The translations under genes were made by a program, and so were the position numbers. A DNA stretch of 64,000 bases from an uncultured bacterium (GTDB taxonomy: Bacteria > Bacillota > Clostridia > Oscillospirales > Oscillospiraceae). Under the pieces are notes generated by a model. The model was given only the letters and a program-made list of their open reading frames with translations. It did no database searches and was not told where the DNA came from. Below, piece by piece: positions 44,650-53,138 of this stretch (positions within the stretch are counted from its first letter, which is position 1; the number at the start of each line of letters is the position of its first letter). The DNA lies in the NCBI GenBank assembly GCA_945873205.1, contig CAMCCC010000002.1:1-64000 (forward strand). The letters run 5' to 3'.

Positions 44650-45959
44650 AGGTGGAAAACCTCCTTCTCTTTCAGCTGCTCAATGATCGCGAGAGACCGG
44701 TTGGAGATCTCCGCGTTTTTGTTTCTCTTGCCTTTGACCCGGTATTCCAGGGGCTTGATGATGCCGAAGTTGATGTTCATGGGCTGGAAGTCCCCCACGC
44801 TGCCGCCGGAGATGTACAGGCCCAGAGCGCCGATGGCGGTCTCCTGGGGGAAATCCACGCTCTCCAGGCCCAGCACCCGGGCGGCAGTCTCGATGCCCAC
44901 CAGCATGCCGGAGGCGGCGGACTCCACATAGCCCTCCACGCCGGTCATCTGGCCGGCAAAGCTGATGCGGGGCTCGCTGCGCAGGCGGCAGTACCGATCC
45001 AGCAGCTTGGGGCTGTTGAGGTAGGTATTGCGGTGCATCACGCCGTAGCGGACGAATTCCGCGTTTTTCAGGGCGGGAATCATGGAGAAAACCCGCTTCT
45101 GCTCCCCCCAGGTCAGGTGGGTCTGGAAGCCCACGATGTTGTAGATGGTGCCGTCCGCATTGTCCCGCCGGAGCTGCACCACGGCGTAATTCTCCCGCCC
45201 GGTGCGGGGATCGATGAGGCCCACCGGCTTCATGGGGCCGTAGCGCAGGGTATCCACCCCACGGCGGGCCATGACCTCCACCGGCATACAGCCTTCAAAC
45301 ACGCCGCCGTCATCAAAGCCGTGCACCGGGGCCTCTTTAGCGCTGACCAGCTCTTTGACAAAGGCCAGGTACTCCTCCTTGTCCATGGGGCAGTTTACAT
45401 AATCCGCGGTTCCCTTGTCGTAGCGGGAGGCGAAGAAGGCGCTGTCCATGTCCACGCTGTCCAGGGTGACGATGGGGGCCACGGCGTCGTAAAAATGCAG
45501 GTCGCTGTCCGGGCAGAGGGCGGCGATTTTTTCAGCGATGGCGTCGCTGCTGAGGGGGCCGGTGGCAATGACCACCTCCCCATCGGGGATGTCCAGCGCC
45601 TCCTGGCGGATGATCTCCACATTGGGGTGCTGCTCCAGGGTTTCGGTGATCTGGCGGGCGAAGCCCTCCCGGTCCACGGCCAGAGCGCCGCCGGCGGCCA
45701 CTTTGTTGGCGTCGGCGCTGGCCATGATGAGGGAGTCCATGGCGCGCATCTCGGCCTTCAACAGGCCCACGGCGTTGGTCAGCTCATCGCTTCTGAGGGA
45801 GTTGGAGCAGACCAGCTCCCCAAAATAAGGGGAATGGTGGGCGGGGCTCATCTTCTCCGGCTTCATTTCCCAGAGGCGGACACGGATGCCCCGTTTTGCC
45901 AGCTGCCAGGCACATTCGCTGCCGGCAAGGCCCGCGCCCAGAACGGTTACAGTTTCCAT
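44646..45959 (-). CDS. trmFO: tRNA (uracil-54) methyltransferase TrmFO
   Basis: TrmFO uses FAD and methylenetetrahydrofolate to make ribothymidine at position 54 of tRNA. The N-terminal FAD motif VLGAGLAGSECAW, the middle FEGCMPVEVMARRGVDTLRYGPMKPVGL and the C-terminal GGSVGDFQPMNINFGII are all diagnostic, and the length of 437 is normal. It directly follows topA, as in Bacillus. Confidence 0.97.
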   Translation of the reverse strand: METVTVLGAGLAGSECAWQLAKRGIRVRLWEMKPEKMSPAHHSPYFGELVCSNSLRSDELTNAVGLLKAEMRAMDSLIMASADANKVAAGGALAVDREGFARQITETLEQHPNVEIIRQEALDIPDGEVVIATGPLSSDAIAEKIAALCPDSDLHFYDAVAPIVTLDSVDMDSAFFASRYDKGTADYVNCPMDKEEYLAFVKELVSAKEAPVHGFDDGGVFEGCMPVEVMARRGVDTLRYGPMKPVGLIDPRTGRENYAVVQLRRDNADGTIYNIVGFQTHLTWGEQKRVFSMIPALKNAEFVRYGVMHRNTYLNSPKLLDRYCRLRSEPRISFAGQMTGVEGYVESAASGMLVGIETAARVLGLESVDFPQETAIGALGLYISGGSVGDFQPMNINFGIIKPLEYRVKGKRNKNAEISNRSLAIIEQLKEKEVFHL

Positions 45960-48215
45960 TTATGCTTCCTTTGCCTTGGCCGTCTTTTTGGCGGCAGGCT
46001 TCTTCGTTGTTGTCTTGGTGGTTTTCTTGGCCGCAGGCTTTTTTGCGGCAGGCTTCTTGGCGGCGGCTTTCTTTTCCGCTGCGGCAGCCTTTTCCTCCGG
46101 GGTCTTTTTCTTATACACCCGCTGCTCCTCCGGCACGAAGTTGGCGCAGGCCTCGTTGATGCAGAAGGATTTCAGGGGGCCGCGGCCGCTGCGCTTGAAC
46201 ATGGTTTTGCCGCAGGCGGGGCAGAAGTCCTTGGTGGGCACGTCCCAGGTGATGAAGCCGCAATCGGTGCCCCGCTCGCAGGCGTAGAACACATAGCCCT
46301 TCTTGGAGGTGCGCTTGAGGATGCGGCCGCCGCACTTGGGGCATTTGCCGGGCATCTCGATGACGATGGGCTTGGTAAAGGTGCAGTCCGGGAAGCCGGG
46401 GCAGGCCAGGAAGTGGCCGAATTTGCCCTTCTTCACCACCATCTGGCGGCCGCAGACATCGCAATACTCATCGCTGAGCACGTCGGGCACCTTCAGCTTC
46501 ACGCCCTCCATGGCAGTCTCGGCGGCCTGCAGCTCCTGGCTAAAATCATCGTAGAAATCCGCCAGCACATTGCGCCACTGGGCCTTGCCGTTCTCGATCT
46601 CGTCCAGCTCCGCCTCCATGTGGTTGGTGAATTTCAGGTCCACGATATCGGCAAAGCGCTCCTTCATCAGGCCGGTCACCACCTCGCCCAGGGGGGTGGG
46701 GCGCAGGTACTTGCCCTCTTTGATCACATAGTCATGGGCGGTGATGGTGGAAATGGTGGGGGCGTAGGTGGAGGGGCGGCCGATGCCCTTCTCCTCCATG
46801 GCCCGGATGAGGGTGGCCTCGGTGAAGCGGGCGGGGGGCTGGGTGAACTGCTGATCCGGCAGCATCTTCTCCAGGTACAGCTGCTGGCCCTGGCTGAGGC
46901 TGGGCAGGGGGTTATCGATCTCGCTGCTCTCCTCATCCCGGGCTTCCTCGTACACGGCGGTATAGCCCTTGAACTTCATTTCGGAATAGTTGGCCTTGAA
47001 GGTATAGCCGGCAGAGTCCACCTCCACGGACACATTGTCATAGACGGCGTTGGCCATCTGGCAGGCGGTGAAGCGGCCCCAGATCAGCCGGTAGAGCCGG
47101 TACTGCTCCTGGGTCAGGTCCTTGCGCACCACATCGGGGCTGAGGTTCACGTCGGTGGGGCGGATGGCCTCATGGGCGTCCTGGGCGCCGGACTTGGTTT
47201 TGAAATGCCGGGGCTTGCCGGGGTAATAGTTCTCGCCATAGTGCTGGACGATATAGGCGCCGGCGGCGGCAAGGGCCTCCTCCGAGAGACGGAGGGAGTC
47301 GGTACGCATGTAGGTAATGAGGCCCACGCTGCCCTGGCCGCTGATCTCCACGCCTTCATAGAGCTGCTGGGCGATGGACATGGTGCGCCGGGGCGTCATG
47401 CCCAGGCGGCGGGAGGCCTCCTGCTGCAGGGTGGAGGTAATGAAGGGGGGCGCGGGAGACTTCTGCTTCTCCCCACGCTTGACGGTCTTGACGGTGAAGG
47501 GAGCTTTCTCTGTCTCGCGGATGACGGTGTTGACCTCCGCCTCGCTGTGCAGCTCCTGCTTCTTATCGCCCTTGCCGAAGAAGCGGGCGTTGAAGCTGGC
47601 GGTATCTTCCCCGCAGTTGAGACAGGCGTCCAGCAGCCAATACTCCTGGCTGTTGAAGTTGCGGATCTCCTCCTCCCGGTCCACCACCATGCGGGTAGCC
47701 ACGGACTGGACGCGGCCGGCGGAAAGGCCGGTTTTGATCTTGCGCCACAGGAAGGGGGACAGCTCATAGCCCACAATCCGGTCCAGGATGCGGCGGGCCT
47801 GCTGGGCATTGACCAGGTCCTGGTCAATGCTGCGGGGGTTCTGGATGCTCTCGGTGACTACCTTTTTGGTGATCTCATTAAAAGTGACCCGCTTGGCCTT
47901 CTCGTCGTCCAGCTCCAGCAGCTCCTTCAGGTGCCAGGAGATGGCTTCGCCCTCCCGGTCAGGGTCCGTTGCCAGATAGACGGTCTTGGCGGCCTTGGCC
48001 TCCTTCTTCAGTTCGCTGATCAGTTCCTTTTTATCACGGACGGGGATATATTGGGGTTCAAAGCCATGCTCAATATCCACGCCCATTTTGCTCTTGGGCA
48101 GATCCCGCAGGTGGCCCATGGAGGCGGTCACCTTATAGTCGCTGCCCAGGTATTTCTCGATGGTTTTGGCTTTCGCCGGGGATTCGACGATCACCAAGTT
48201 CTTCGCTTTTGCCAT
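45960..48215 (-). CDS. topA: DNA topoisomerase I with a Lys/Ala-rich tail
   Basis: TopA relaxes negative supercoils. The TOPRIM motif VIVESPAKAKTIEKYLG starts the protein, DPDREGEAISWHL follows, and the active-site Tyr is in GLITYMRTDSLRLS. Three C-terminal zinc ribbons are seen (CDVCGRQ...CPGFPDC, CPKCGGR...CERGTDC, CPACGKT...CINEAC). The last about 50 residues are a histone H1-like tail of AAKKPAAKK repeats, likely to bind DNA. Length is 751. It sits between dprA and trmFO. Confidence 0.97.
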   Translation of the reverse strand: MAKAKNLVIVESPAKAKTIEKYLGSDYKVTASMGHLRDLPKSKMGVDIEHGFEPQYIPVRDKKELISELKKEAKAAKTVYLATDPDREGEAISWHLKELLELDDEKAKRVTFNEITKKVVTESIQNPRSIDQDLVNAQQARRILDRIVGYELSPFLWRKIKTGLSAGRVQSVATRMVVDREEEIRNFNSQEYWLLDACLNCGEDTASFNARFFGKGDKKQELHSEAEVNTVIRETEKAPFTVKTVKRGEKQKSPAPPFITSTLQQEASRRLGMTPRRTMSIAQQLYEGVEISGQGSVGLITYMRTDSLRLSEEALAAAGAYIVQHYGENYYPGKPRHFKTKSGAQDAHEAIRPTDVNLSPDVVRKDLTQEQYRLYRLIWGRFTACQMANAVYDNVSVEVDSAGYTFKANYSEMKFKGYTAVYEEARDEESSEIDNPLPSLSQGQQLYLEKMLPDQQFTQPPARFTEATLIRAMEEKGIGRPSTYAPTISTITAHDYVIKEGKYLRPTPLGEVVTGLMKERFADIVDLKFTNHMEAELDEIENGKAQWRNVLADFYDDFSQELQAAETAMEGVKLKVPDVLSDEYCDVCGRQMVVKKGKFGHFLACPGFPDCTFTKPIVIEMPGKCPKCGGRILKRTSKKGYVFYACERGTDCGFITWDVPTKDFCPACGKTMFKRSGRGPLKSFCINEACANFVPEEQRVYKKKTPEEKAAAAEKKAAAKKPAAKKPAAKKTTKTTTKKPAAKKTAKAKEA

Positions 48216-48225
48216 TGTGTTCTCC

Positions 48226-49422
48226 TTAACGCTTTATATTCAGACTTATCCTTTTGCCGGCGCTGCGGCTGATATAGCCTTTTATCTCCAAAACCGTAAG
48301 CTGGGCCAGCACCTTGGCCGCCGGGTAGCCGGTGGCCTCGATAATATCGTCTATATGCTGCTTTCCCTTGCCGATGGCGGTGATGATCTCCAACTGCTCC
48401 GTACTCAGGCCGGAGAGCTGGTCACGCAAGTCAATATAATCTTTGGGCTTTTCCTTGTCAATCTCTTTTTTCGCTTTCGCCGGTTCCGCAGGCTTTTCCG
48501 CCGGTGGGGCGGGGGCCGGTTCCTCCGGCAGTCCGGCGTGGCCCGGATGCAGCCGGCCGGGGCAGAGCCCCTCGAAATCGCTGAGCACATCCCAGCCGCA
48601 GGTGGCAGGCCGGGCCCCCTGCTTCAAGAGAGCGTTGGTACCGGCGCTGTTGGCAGCGTCCGCATTGCCGGGGACGGCAAAAATCTCCTTCCCCTGCTCC
48701 AGGGCCTCGGCGGCAAAGAGCAAGGCGCCGCTGGTTGCGGGCGCTTCCACCACGGTCACCGCCAGAGACAGCCCGGCGGCGATGCGGTTCCGGTCCCGGA
48801 AAAAGCTTTTCTGGGTGACGGTGCCCGGCGGGTATTCGCTGACCAAGGCGCCGGAGGCGGCAATATCCCGCTGCAGAGGACTGAGGCGTTCCGAATGGGC
48901 GGTGCCCAGGACGCCAACGCATTTGCCGCCGCCCAGCAGGGCGCCCCTGGCCGCGGCTTCATCGATGCCCGGGGACAGGGTAGAAACCACAACGCCGCCG
49001 GAAGAAGCGATCTCATAGGCCAGCCGGTGGCCCATTTTCAGGCCGTAAGGCGTGGCGCTGCGGGTGCCGATGACGGAGACGGCGGCCTCCTCATCCAGGC
49101 CCTTGATGCTGCCCTGTACAAACAGGACCACCGGCGGGGCGAAAATGGCCTTCAGCCGGGCAGGATACTCCGCATCCTGCATGGTGACCACGTCCAGGCC
49201 CAGGGCATGGCAGCCGGAGAGAATGGCATCCACCCGGTGCAGGTCCCGGGCTTCCAGCAGGGCCGCGTCCCGCTCCGACAGGCCGGGAAGCCGCGCAAAA
49301 GCGCCGGAGGGGGCAAAGAAGGCCTCCTCCGCACTGCCGTAGTGGGCAATCAACGCCGCCTTGGACCTGGGGCTTACATTGCTTTGGGCGGCAAGCCACA
49401 GCCAGTATTTTATCGCTGCCAA
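48226..49422 (-). CDS. dprA: DNA-processing protein DprA
   Basis: DprA loads RecA on incoming single-stranded DNA during transformation. The Rossmann-type core has VIGTRSATPYGLKMG, SGGVVVSTLSPGIDEAAARGAL, SEYPPGT and FRDRNRIAAGLS. A Pro/Ala/Lys-rich linker precedes a C-terminal winged helix (about residues 330-398, LRDQLSGLSTEQLEIITAIGKGKQHIDDI). It lies upstream of topA, the common order in Firmicutes. No other competence genes are in the window. Confidence 0.95.
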   Translation of the reverse strand: MAAIKYWLWLAAQSNVSPRSKAALIAHYGSAEEAFFAPSGAFARLPGLSERDAALLEARDLHRVDAILSGCHALGLDVVTMQDAEYPARLKAIFAPPVVLFVQGSIKGLDEEAAVSVIGTRSATPYGLKMGHRLAYEIASSGGVVVSTLSPGIDEAAARGALLGGGKCVGVLGTAHSERLSPLQRDIAASGALVSEYPPGTVTQKSFFRDRNRIAAGLSLAVTVVEAPATSGALLFAAEALEQGKEIFAVPGNADAANSAGTNALLKQGARPATCGWDVLSDFEGLCPGRLHPGHAGLPEEPAPAPPAEKPAEPAKAKKEIDKEKPKDYIDLRDQLSGLSTEQLEIITAIGKGKQHIDDIIEATGYPAAKVLAQLTVLEIKGYISRSAGKRISLNIKR

Positions 49423-50497: not shown

Positions 50498-53074
50498 TCA
50501 ACTATCCATCAGGCCCAGGAGGCAGTCCTGGCTGGCGACCTCGGCATAGAGGATGGCCCGGTTCTCCCCGAAGTCATAGACCTTCACCACATCCTCCAGG
50601 GCTGCGGGTCCGCCCAGTTCCTGGAAGCGATCCGGGAAGGCGTCAAAGGCTTCCTCCCGGAAGAGGCAGCCCGCCTCCCCCTGGTAGACCGCAGCATAGA
50701 AAATGCCGCTTTCCACCAGATCCTGGAAGAAATGGCTGCCGTAGCTCAGCTCCGGCCGCAGACCATGGGACTGATAGGCCAGCTCGCAGATGCAGGCATA
50801 GTGGGAGATCTCCGCAAAGCTCACAGGAACGCCCAGGCTGGGGGTGGTGGTGCCCCAACGGCCCGGCCCCAGCAAAACCGCGTTCCCGTCCCTCAGCTTT
50901 CGGTTCATGTCCCCCACGGTACGGGCCACGGCATACTTCATCTGCTCCGGCAGCTCCAGGTAGGGCTCCACCTTCACAAATACCGCATAGCGCACGGGAA
51001 TACAGGCGTTGCCGCCCATGAAATTGCCACGAATCCGCAGCAGGTGCTCCCGCACCTTGGGCATCACCCCCGCCTGCCCCAGGCCATGGGTCTGCAAAGG
51101 CCGGCATTGCAGCAGGTTCACCCGGTAGTCCCCGTCCCGGTCAAAGCTGCAGGCATATTCCACGTCCACCGGGTAGTCGTACTTTTCCGCCAGCAGGGCC
51201 ATGATCCGGGTCATCACCGGTGCAAAATCCGTGTTCCGCAGCAGTTTGCGGAAGTTGAGCAGCTCGGGCACCGGCTCGCCATAGAGACCCAGCTCCCGGA
51301 AGCGGGCGGCGGTGGCCATGTCCGGCTCCAGAAACAGGCCGGTATCGGTCTTCATATCCGCTTTGTTCAGGTCCTCCAGCCGCACGGTGGTGAAGCGGTT
51401 GTTTTTCAGGTCGATCAGGTCCACCTTGTGCTGGGAGAATTTATATTCATCGCCATAGTCCACCATGGGCGGCGCCAGGGGTTTGTTCAGGTCGATGAGC
51501 CGGGCATAGTCCTCCGCCTCCCGATCCACGGCCCGGGTACCCATGCCGAAAACCAGACGCAGCATCCCCTTGTTCTCCGCCGCCGTGACGCCGTTTTCGT
51601 ACAGGTTCCGGGAGTGGCCCACCCCCGCCACATGGGGATAGTAATAGTCGCCATGGCAGTCGCCGCAGACCCGCATCACCAGCAGCGCCATCTGCTCGTC
51701 CCGGTCCATCAGGTTCCGCTCAATGCGGTACTGATAGGCTTCCTGGCTCAGGGTGCTGGCATACACGGTCTTTACCGCCGCTTCAAACTCCCGGTACCGC
51801 TGCTCGATGCTGCCCTGGTTGGGGCAGAATACGCTTTCATACTTGCCGGCAAAGGCGTTGCCGAAGCCATCCTCCAGCAGGGAGCTGGAGCGGACAATGA
51901 TGGGCGACTGGCCAAAATACTCCAGCATGGACAGAAACTGGCTCTTGATCTCCGGCATGAAATGACCGTCCAACAGCCGCTGCTTGAATTCCGGGGCAAT
52001 GCGCAGGTAGTCCTCCGGCTCCAGCATCCGGGTGCGCAGCTCCCAGGTGCCGTTCTGCACGGCGTAGGTATAGAACACGTCCGCCCCGATGAAATAGGAA
52101 TCGTGGGGCTCAATCCGCCGCCGGAACAGCTCCGGGTCCGTGTCCCGGAGGATGTTGCGGGCCAGCAGCATACCCACCGCCTTGCCGCCGATGCAGCCGG
52201 TGCCGATCTCCCGCTTTTTGATGTCCATCAGGTCCTTCACGGAGAAGTATTTCCGGCACAGGGCCAGCCGCTTGGGTTCCCACCCCAGCAGGCAGCGCAG
52301 AATGTTTTCCTTCAATGCCCGGCCGTCGTCGTCCTCCGGCTCCTCGTGGCCGGGCCGCACCGAGTCAAACATGCTGTCCCAGCAATCCCGCCGCTCCCCG
52401 GTCTGGGTGAAGATGTCAAAGATGGCATAGCTTTCGGCGCTGGAGGTTATGACCCGGCTGCCGCCGTGCTCCAGCTTCAGGGGGAAGTACATGGTCTCTG
52501 TCTGCCGGCCGGCCACCTTCACAGGATGGATGTAGGTGCTGCCCTCCAGGGTGCGGATGTTCAGCAGCACCTGGGTACTCTCCCGGATGCGGGAGATGGT
52601 CTCATACAGGTGCCGTTCATATTTGACGCAGGTGTAGGCAATGGCGCCCCGCCGGTGACTGAAGGCGCTGGTGAGGCAGAAGAAGTTGCACACCATGTGA
52701 TCGGAAAACCAGAAGTGCTGCAGGCAGGAGAGGCAGTCGGTAATGAAGATGCTGTTCTCCGGCTCCTGGCTGATGATCCGGTGCACCTGCATGGCAAAGG
52801 TCTCAAAGCCCACCATGGGGTTCAGGGTGTATTTGATCACGTTGGCACCCCGGCGGGCCAGGGCCTCCGCGTCCACCACCTCCGCATGGTCGGCAAAGCG
52901 GAGATAGACAATCCGCTGGCCGGTTCTGGCCACGCTGGTCACCAGCTGAGTGGCCGCAAAGACATAGTCCCCCACGTTCTCAATCTGCCAGGTCACCGTG
53001 TCCCCCCGGCGCAGAAAATCCAGAGTCTGATCCAGGCCGTCAATGCCTGTACTGATTCTTTTCTCCTCGTCCAT
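50498..53074 (-). CDS. PEP-synthase-like ATP-grasp protein with a KaiC-like N-terminal domain
   Basis: The 858-residue protein has a N-terminal region (about 1-250) beginning STGIDGLDQTLDFLRRGDTV, the opening of KaiC/RadA-type RecA-fold domains, but the expected Walker A (GXXGXGKT) is replaced by WQIENVGDYVFAA. The rest is the pyruvate-phosphate dikinase/PEP synthase ATP-binding module: GTGCIGGKAVGMLLARN, IIVRSSSLLEDGFGNAFAGKYES and VEYACSFDRDGDYRVNLLQCRP. The swivelling phospho-His domain and PEP-binding barrel are absent. GGAGGT precedes the ATG at 53074. It may phosphorylate an unidentified partner; the true reaction is unknown. Confidence 0.8.
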   Translation of the reverse strand: MDEEKRISTGIDGLDQTLDFLRRGDTVTWQIENVGDYVFAATQLVTSVARTGQRIVYLRFADHAEVVDAEALARRGANVIKYTLNPMVGFETFAMQVHRIISQEPENSIFITDCLSCLQHFWFSDHMVCNFFCLTSAFSHRRGAIAYTCVKYERHLYETISRIRESTQVLLNIRTLEGSTYIHPVKVAGRQTETMYFPLKLEHGGSRVITSSAESYAIFDIFTQTGERRDCWDSMFDSVRPGHEEPEDDDGRALKENILRCLLGWEPKRLALCRKYFSVKDLMDIKKREIGTGCIGGKAVGMLLARNILRDTDPELFRRRIEPHDSYFIGADVFYTYAVQNGTWELRTRMLEPEDYLRIAPEFKQRLLDGHFMPEIKSQFLSMLEYFGQSPIIVRSSSLLEDGFGNAFAGKYESVFCPNQGSIEQRYREFEAAVKTVYASTLSQEAYQYRIERNLMDRDEQMALLVMRVCGDCHGDYYYPHVAGVGHSRNLYENGVTAAENKGMLRLVFGMGTRAVDREAEDYARLIDLNKPLAPPMVDYGDEYKFSQHKVDLIDLKNNRFTTVRLEDLNKADMKTDTGLFLEPDMATAARFRELGLYGEPVPELLNFRKLLRNTDFAPVMTRIMALLAEKYDYPVDVEYACSFDRDGDYRVNLLQCRPLQTHGLGQAGVMPKVREHLLRIRGNFMGGNACIPVRYAVFVKVEPYLELPEQMKYAVARTVGDMNRKLRDGNAVLLGPGRWGTTTPSLGVPVSFAEISHYACICELAYQSHGLRPELSYGSHFFQDLVESGIFYAAVYQGEAGCLFREEAFDAFPDRFQELGGPAALEDVVKVYDFGENRAILYAEVASQDCLLGLMDS

Positions 53075-53138
53075 TCCAGCACCTCCCGCAAGTGTTTTGT
53101 TCCGTTTTTGACAAAATCCGTCTGATATTGATAATAAA

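Follow-up and report, generated by a model that had tools for sequence, protein, structure and literature searches.

A KaiC-like domain lacking a P-loop joined to a PPDK-type ATP-grasp module in Oscillospiraceae, with relatives encoded beside glutamate dehydrogenase and glutamate synthase genes

The gene at 50498–53074 of the window (the whole stretch of 64,000 nucleotides analyzed here) encodes an 858-residue protein, conserved in gut bacteria and made of three conserved parts: a probable inactivated KaiC-like domain, an ATP-grasp module of the PPDK/PEP synthase type and a separate C-terminal domain. In its relatives, the neighborhood of glutamate dehydrogenase (gdh) and glutamate synthase (gltBD) genes suggests a nitrogen-assimilation switch that has gone unrecognized. 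We tentatively read the protein as a signal-gated phosphotransferase controlling glutamate formation, with a partner that we infer; this reading is a serious possibility whose chances fall somewhat short of even. The features on which the analysis is based are the following:

50498..53074, minus strand: whole gene, 858 amino acids plus stop (open frame and translation; start and length common to orthologs)
53080..53087, minus strand: Shine-Dalgarno-like GGGAGGTG upstream of the ATG (read from the sequence)
52409..53074, minus strand: N-terminal domain, residues 1–222, predicted RecA/KaiC fold without P-loop (AlphaFold, Foldseek, P-loop count)
52220..52408, minus strand: linker, residues 223–285, of low confidence and then helical (model confidence, secondary structure)
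51074..52195, minus strand: PPDK_N ATP-grasp module, residues 294–667 (Pfam, Foldseek, conservation in 111 proteins)
50501..51073, minus strand: conserved C-terminal domain, residues 668–858, with GPGRWG and SYGSHFFQDL (conservation in all architectures)
50732..50734, minus strand: H781 codon, encoding the C-terminal domain's candidate acceptor or catalytic His (107 of 111 proteins have His here)

The reading frame opens with an ATG at 53074 on the minus strand and runs to 50501, followed by the stop. It lies well beyond chance: searches of other genomes turned up 53 related loci, with identities of 47–79% and a query coverage of ~95% or more in all but one; Oscillospiraceae orthologs, of about 841–863 residues, have its start and its MxxxxISTGIxGLD opening in common. 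The preliminary observation on this gene is real and confirmed. Elsewhere, very long plus-strand antisense frames lie opposite real genes, at 44652–48272 of the window and in other places (1206 residues opposite topA); they are an effect of composition and could mislead gene callers.

The ATP-grasp module and the C-terminal domain (~190 residues, common to all architectures) form a core that occurs in four N-terminal states: KaiC-like, GAF-like, receiver-like and none. When 300 genomes of the phylum were queried with the protein, 42 contained a match, and the forms retrieved were full-length proteins with the same N-domain (36–45% identity), stand-alone cores of ~580 residues, and proteins of ~1065 and ~1000 residues. 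The GAF-like form also bears a C-terminal nucleotidyltransferase (in the ~1065-residue L071, a weak GAF match at the N-terminus and NTP_transf_2 at the C-terminus), and a Bacteroidota form (L095) gives a receiver match at its N-terminus. Read by eye, the N-terminal ~300 residues of L095, L208, L209, and L210 seem to be tandem receivers, the first devoid of the acceptor Asp/acidic residues and the second having a conserved acceptor-type Asp. In a tree of 75 core rows, every architecture formed a single clade, and the KaiC-like type grouped as sister to the GAF-like one (98% SH-aLRT), but the deep order of this tree is not secure because of the long branches between types. The searches made found relatives in Bacillota and in a handful of plasmid-classed Bacteroidota records, the latter being of the Bacteroidales receiver type only, and the viral contigs searched yielded none. 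The open-access papers searched included none on a KaiC and PPDK fusion.

The protein begins with MDEEKRISTGIDGLDQ, and the segment IENVGDYVF stands at the position of the P-loop. From the letters of the sequence, this region had been described as RecA-like, with a KaiC/RadA opening and no P-loop, and the structure prediction proposed at that time bears this out. The AlphaFold model of residues ~1–220, built from an alignment of 19 diverse members, adopts a RecA/KaiC fold (pLDDT 87.1, pTM 0.74), whose best Foldseek matches in the PDB are KaiC (4e-12) and FlaH (8e-12; TM 0.69 over the target), the KaiC/FlaH matches together spanning E-values from 4e-12 to 1e-11. None of the 86 proteins with this N-domain contains a P-loop ([AG]xxxxGK), the sole match to the pattern (L007) spanning sequence upstream of the start Met, whereas the motif is present in all 12 RadA-type comparison rows. 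In the 86 proteins, a short segment that mostly ends in DY takes the place of the loop. The alignment shows no variation at D113, which occupies the Walker B position, or at K186/R190. Neither Pfam nor a PDB sequence search gave a match for the domain. Profile comparisons with RadA and with MEDS reached P ~0.007 each (negative control, 0.11), so that kinship with KaiC is argued from the fold alone. Among the 19 members, the best E-value against the Pfam MEDS profile was 0.16, and the hhalign probability was 5%. In 291 genomes of the class, broken or truncated frames aside, the domain was found solely at the N-terminus of fusion-length frames.

The N-domain therefore resembles the KaiC/FlaH/RadA ATPases by its predicted fold, its STGI-x-x-LD opening and the Asp at the Walker B position, but differs from them by the lack of Walker A, by its constant fusion to an ATP-grasp core and by the lack of a clear profile similarity. 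Archaeal signaling proteins are reported to carry "inactivated KaiC-like" domains, MEDS and DUF835 (PMC5847659). MEDS (PF14417) and DUF835 offer a parallel, as KaiC-like domains without P-loop that serve as input modules of signaling proteins; the domain studied here is, however, fused to an ATP-grasp module rather than to a histidine kinase or receiver, and gives no Pfam MEDS match. On the strength of the model, we consider it to be probably an inactivated KaiC-like domain with a sensor role. The preliminary description had seen in it a binding scaffold, which is too narrow a view: the same core bears GAF-like or receiver domains instead in other lineages, and the KaiC-like part is thus more likely a regulatory input domain than a mere scaffold.

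Pfam recognizes PPDK_N alone in the 858-residue protein (residues 294–667, E-value 5e-39, 134.8 bits against a cut-off of 27), and NCBIfam returns only partial matches below cut-off, to PEP synthases for the most part. Foldseek searches with the core retrieved rifampin phosphotransferase (5e-14), PEP synthase and HpeI (9goj, 4e-11). The whole remainder of the protein had been assigned to a PPDK/PEP-synthase nucleotide-binding module; this assignment is well founded for residues 294–667 and fails for residues ~668–858, which form a separate conserved domain. Across the 111 proteins and four architectures, K298, R395, and E639 never vary and position 414 always holds a hydroxyl residue; D637, Q656, and R658 are almost as constant, with Glu in place of D637 in the receiver type. 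In rifampin phosphotransferase, full catalysis depends on Lys22, Arg117, and Thr136 (PMC4844700), and K298, R395, and S414, placed by sequence motifs, would be their equivalents. The catalytic Lys, Arg, Glu, and Q-x-R were matched through a PEP synthase alignment and PMC4844700. The ATP-grasp module thus shares with PPDK, PEP synthase, and rifampin phosphotransferase the fold, the GGK lysine, the VRSS arginine, D/E-x-E and Q-x-R-P, and it is apparently intact, with its catalytic residues retained. Where these enzymes have a swivel phospho-His domain and a PEP or rifampin domain, it is accompanied by a sensor-like N-domain and by a C-terminal domain unrelated to theirs.

These data bear on two of the rival readings. 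It might be an ordinary PEP synthase or PPDK that has decayed and lost its distal domains, as the presence of PPDK_N as sole Pfam domain and the annotation of a Parabacteroides relative ("PEP/pyruvate-binding domain-containing protein") could suggest. We regard this as highly improbable, given that architecture and length are constant and strongly conserved in many Bacillota families, a conservation which already contradicts decay, and that the core is only 14–16% identical to solved PEP synthase or RPH. Alternatively, the protein could be a non-catalytic nucleotide sensor or scaffold, in which the binding of ATP to the ATP-grasp module merely drives a change of shape. Loss of a catalytic site has already occurred in this protein, whose N-domain is without the P-loop seen in the proteins that it resembles in structure, but the near-invariance of the ATP-grasp catalytic residues in 111 proteins from two phyla makes this second reading very unlikely.

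As previously noted, the protein has no phospho-His and PEP-barrel domains that can be recognized: Pfam finds neither the PF00391 swivel domain nor a PEP/pyruvate-binding barrel in its 858 residues. The source genome (assembly ~91% complete) contains a single phospho-His domain (PEP-utilizers, PF00391), located inside an 897-residue PPDK on contig 4, which is the one other PPDK_N protein of this genome, and no stand-alone phospho-His/swivel domain. Across 20 genomes from the genus and the order, the swivel domain is essentially confined to PPDK- or EI-sized frames. PTS enzyme I was not found in the source genome; an EI-sized frame exists in several members of the genus.

The preliminary description had proposed that the protein phosphorylates a separate partner or a different acceptor; with a swivel protein as partner, it would be an ATP-grasp subunit acting in trans, as in the HpeI/HpeH and PpsB/PpsA pairs. 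HpeI, a solved stand-alone ATP-grasp subunit (PMC12167813), is indeed among the structural matches of the core cited above, and HpeI, CreI, and PpsB, the subunits of two-component dikinases, likewise contain a PPDK-type ATP-grasp without a swivel domain of its own. They possess, however, a dedicated swivel partner, of which none was found here; the 858-residue protein exceeds them in size and has two further domains, one of them a conserved C-terminal domain that HpeI lacks, and a swivel gene is never its conserved neighbor. The swivel searches give no support to a separate phospho-His partner as first stated, and the proposal overlooked the C-terminal domain with its near-invariant R739, E764, and H781. 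We consider such phosphorylation in trans unlikely.

This C-terminal domain gave no Pfam match above chance in 25 members and no PDB sequence match. In the 300 genomes of the phylum, it occurred in 36 matches, all in frames with room for the ATP-grasp module. The 111 proteins agree without exception at N724 and E764 and with a single exception at R739; at position 781, 107 of them have His, and the other four have Arg there, followed by a His at 784. In the stand-alone proteins L077, L079, and L080, GTRFFHDL is found in place of GTHFFADL, as though the role of the residue had shifted along a helix. In the known order of PPDK domains, the swivel domain lies where the C-terminal domain sits. An overlooked His domain was considered for this region and rejected: comparison with swivel-domain profiles gave a probability of 0.3%, and the swivel motif T/SxxGGxxxH (PMC12167813) is absent, the local motif being SYGSH. 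The C-terminal domain may carry or bind an acceptor.

Analysis of the genomic neighborhood, also proposed earlier, provided a functional context. Among close Oscillospiraceae, flanking genes are variable and no operon partner is conserved, except in one subclade, where gltB-gltD lie directly downstream. A blind set of 20 distant loci, fetched before their neighbors were known, contained 16 loci with an N-domain and 4 without. The gdh or gltBD genes were directly adjacent in 8 of the 16 (L191, L192, L196, L199, L201, L202, L203, and L208) and in none of the 4, and they were found in 0 of 21 control regions of the same genome set, nearly all ~40 kb away. A Fisher test by hand (8/16 vs. 0/20) gives p of about 4e-4, the loci from one genus not being independent; a binomial estimate on an earlier genus-level tally of 11/29 gives < 1e-17 at assumed chance rates of 0.16–0.5% per locus. 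In the larger set, adjacency was observed for 14 of 86 KaiC-type members, all 3 of the GAF type, 2 of the 4 with receivers and none of the 18 stand-alone ones, and also, beyond these counts, in Phocaeicola. It extends over two phyla, with 9 changes on the core tree, and the identities of the neighbors as GDH and glutamate synthase were confirmed by NCBIfam.

The arrangement itself varies. In Parabacteroides and Phocaeicola, gdh is adjacent and divergent and another gdh flanks the gene on its opposite side, and no gdh was found nearby in Prevotella. The gene, gltD, gltB, and gdh lie within 12 kb in one genome (G182), as does gdh in two others (G156 and G453). Two side observations concern individual loci: in all three ~1065-residue members L201, L202, and L203 (genomes G114, G218, and G190), glutamate dehydrogenase is directly upstream, and beside L195, L200, and L209, which have no adjacent gdh or gltBD, aldehyde/alcohol dehydrogenase-like genes are sometimes seen by eye. 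Most close relatives are without the link, which is also absent in the source genome, the window containing neither gdh nor gltBD and the main GDH gene being on another contig. The recurrent linkage is a functional association, not a mechanism.

The signal-gated phosphotransferase that we tentatively favor brings these elements together: the interchangeable N-domains point to an input role, the intact ATP-grasp to phosphotransfer, and the linkage with gdh/gltBD to a role at the glutamate node. The KaiC-like domain would bind a ligand or partner and inform the ATP-grasp module of the state of nitrogen, energy or redox supply. With ATP as the donor, this module would phosphorylate either a residue of the protein's own C-terminal domain (with H781 as candidate) or a partner protein. 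The target would be glutamate dehydrogenase, glutamate synthase, or their regulator, the weakest step of the scheme. Its multidomain organization, a sensor joined to a nucleotide-using enzyme, recalls the GlnD/GlnE proteins of nitrogen-assimilation control, a comparison of how they work that implies no sequence kinship; the GAF-type relatives, beside gdh, likewise bear a nucleotidyltransferase domain.

The protein could also be a small-molecule kinase or ligase, whose C-terminal domain binds a metabolite near glutamate, 2-oxoglutarate or ammonia and whose ATP-grasp phosphorylates this metabolite directly, the N-domains merely tuning the activity and the gdh/gltBD link being metabolic, not regulatory. 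The retention of the catalytic residues and the conservation of E764, N724, R739, and H781, which fit a substrate site, agree with such an enzyme, and related dikinases act on rifampin and phenolics (PMC4844700, PMC12167813). Characterized PPDK-type modules, however, work via a phospho-His swivel, not recognizable here, and swappable receiver and GAF-like N-domains point rather to signaling, so that we hold this alternative to be the less likely one, though it deserves to be kept in mind. Similar reserve applies to a bolder version of the signal-gated phosphotransferase, namely a new nitrogen switch of Bacillota and Bacteroidota in which a PPDK-type ATP-grasp kinase modifies GDH/GOGAT under interchangeable inputs (inactivated KaiC-like, GAF-like with nucleotidyltransferase, or tandem receivers), its phosphate passing via a C-terminal acceptor that replaces the swivel domain; taken in all its parts, it is rather doubtful.

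To our knowledge, the switching of ammonia assimilation has been described far better for enterobacteria than for the anaerobes of the gut (Clostridia, Bacteroidales). A conserved protein combining a sensor with an ATP-grasp module and tied to gdh/gltBD is a concrete candidate for a regulator of ammonia assimilation. If it phosphorylates a protein, the known range of the PPDK-type ATP-grasp would extend from the phosphorylation of metabolites and swivel His residues to protein regulation, and the C-terminal domain, which is of no recognized type, would be the second half of the machine.
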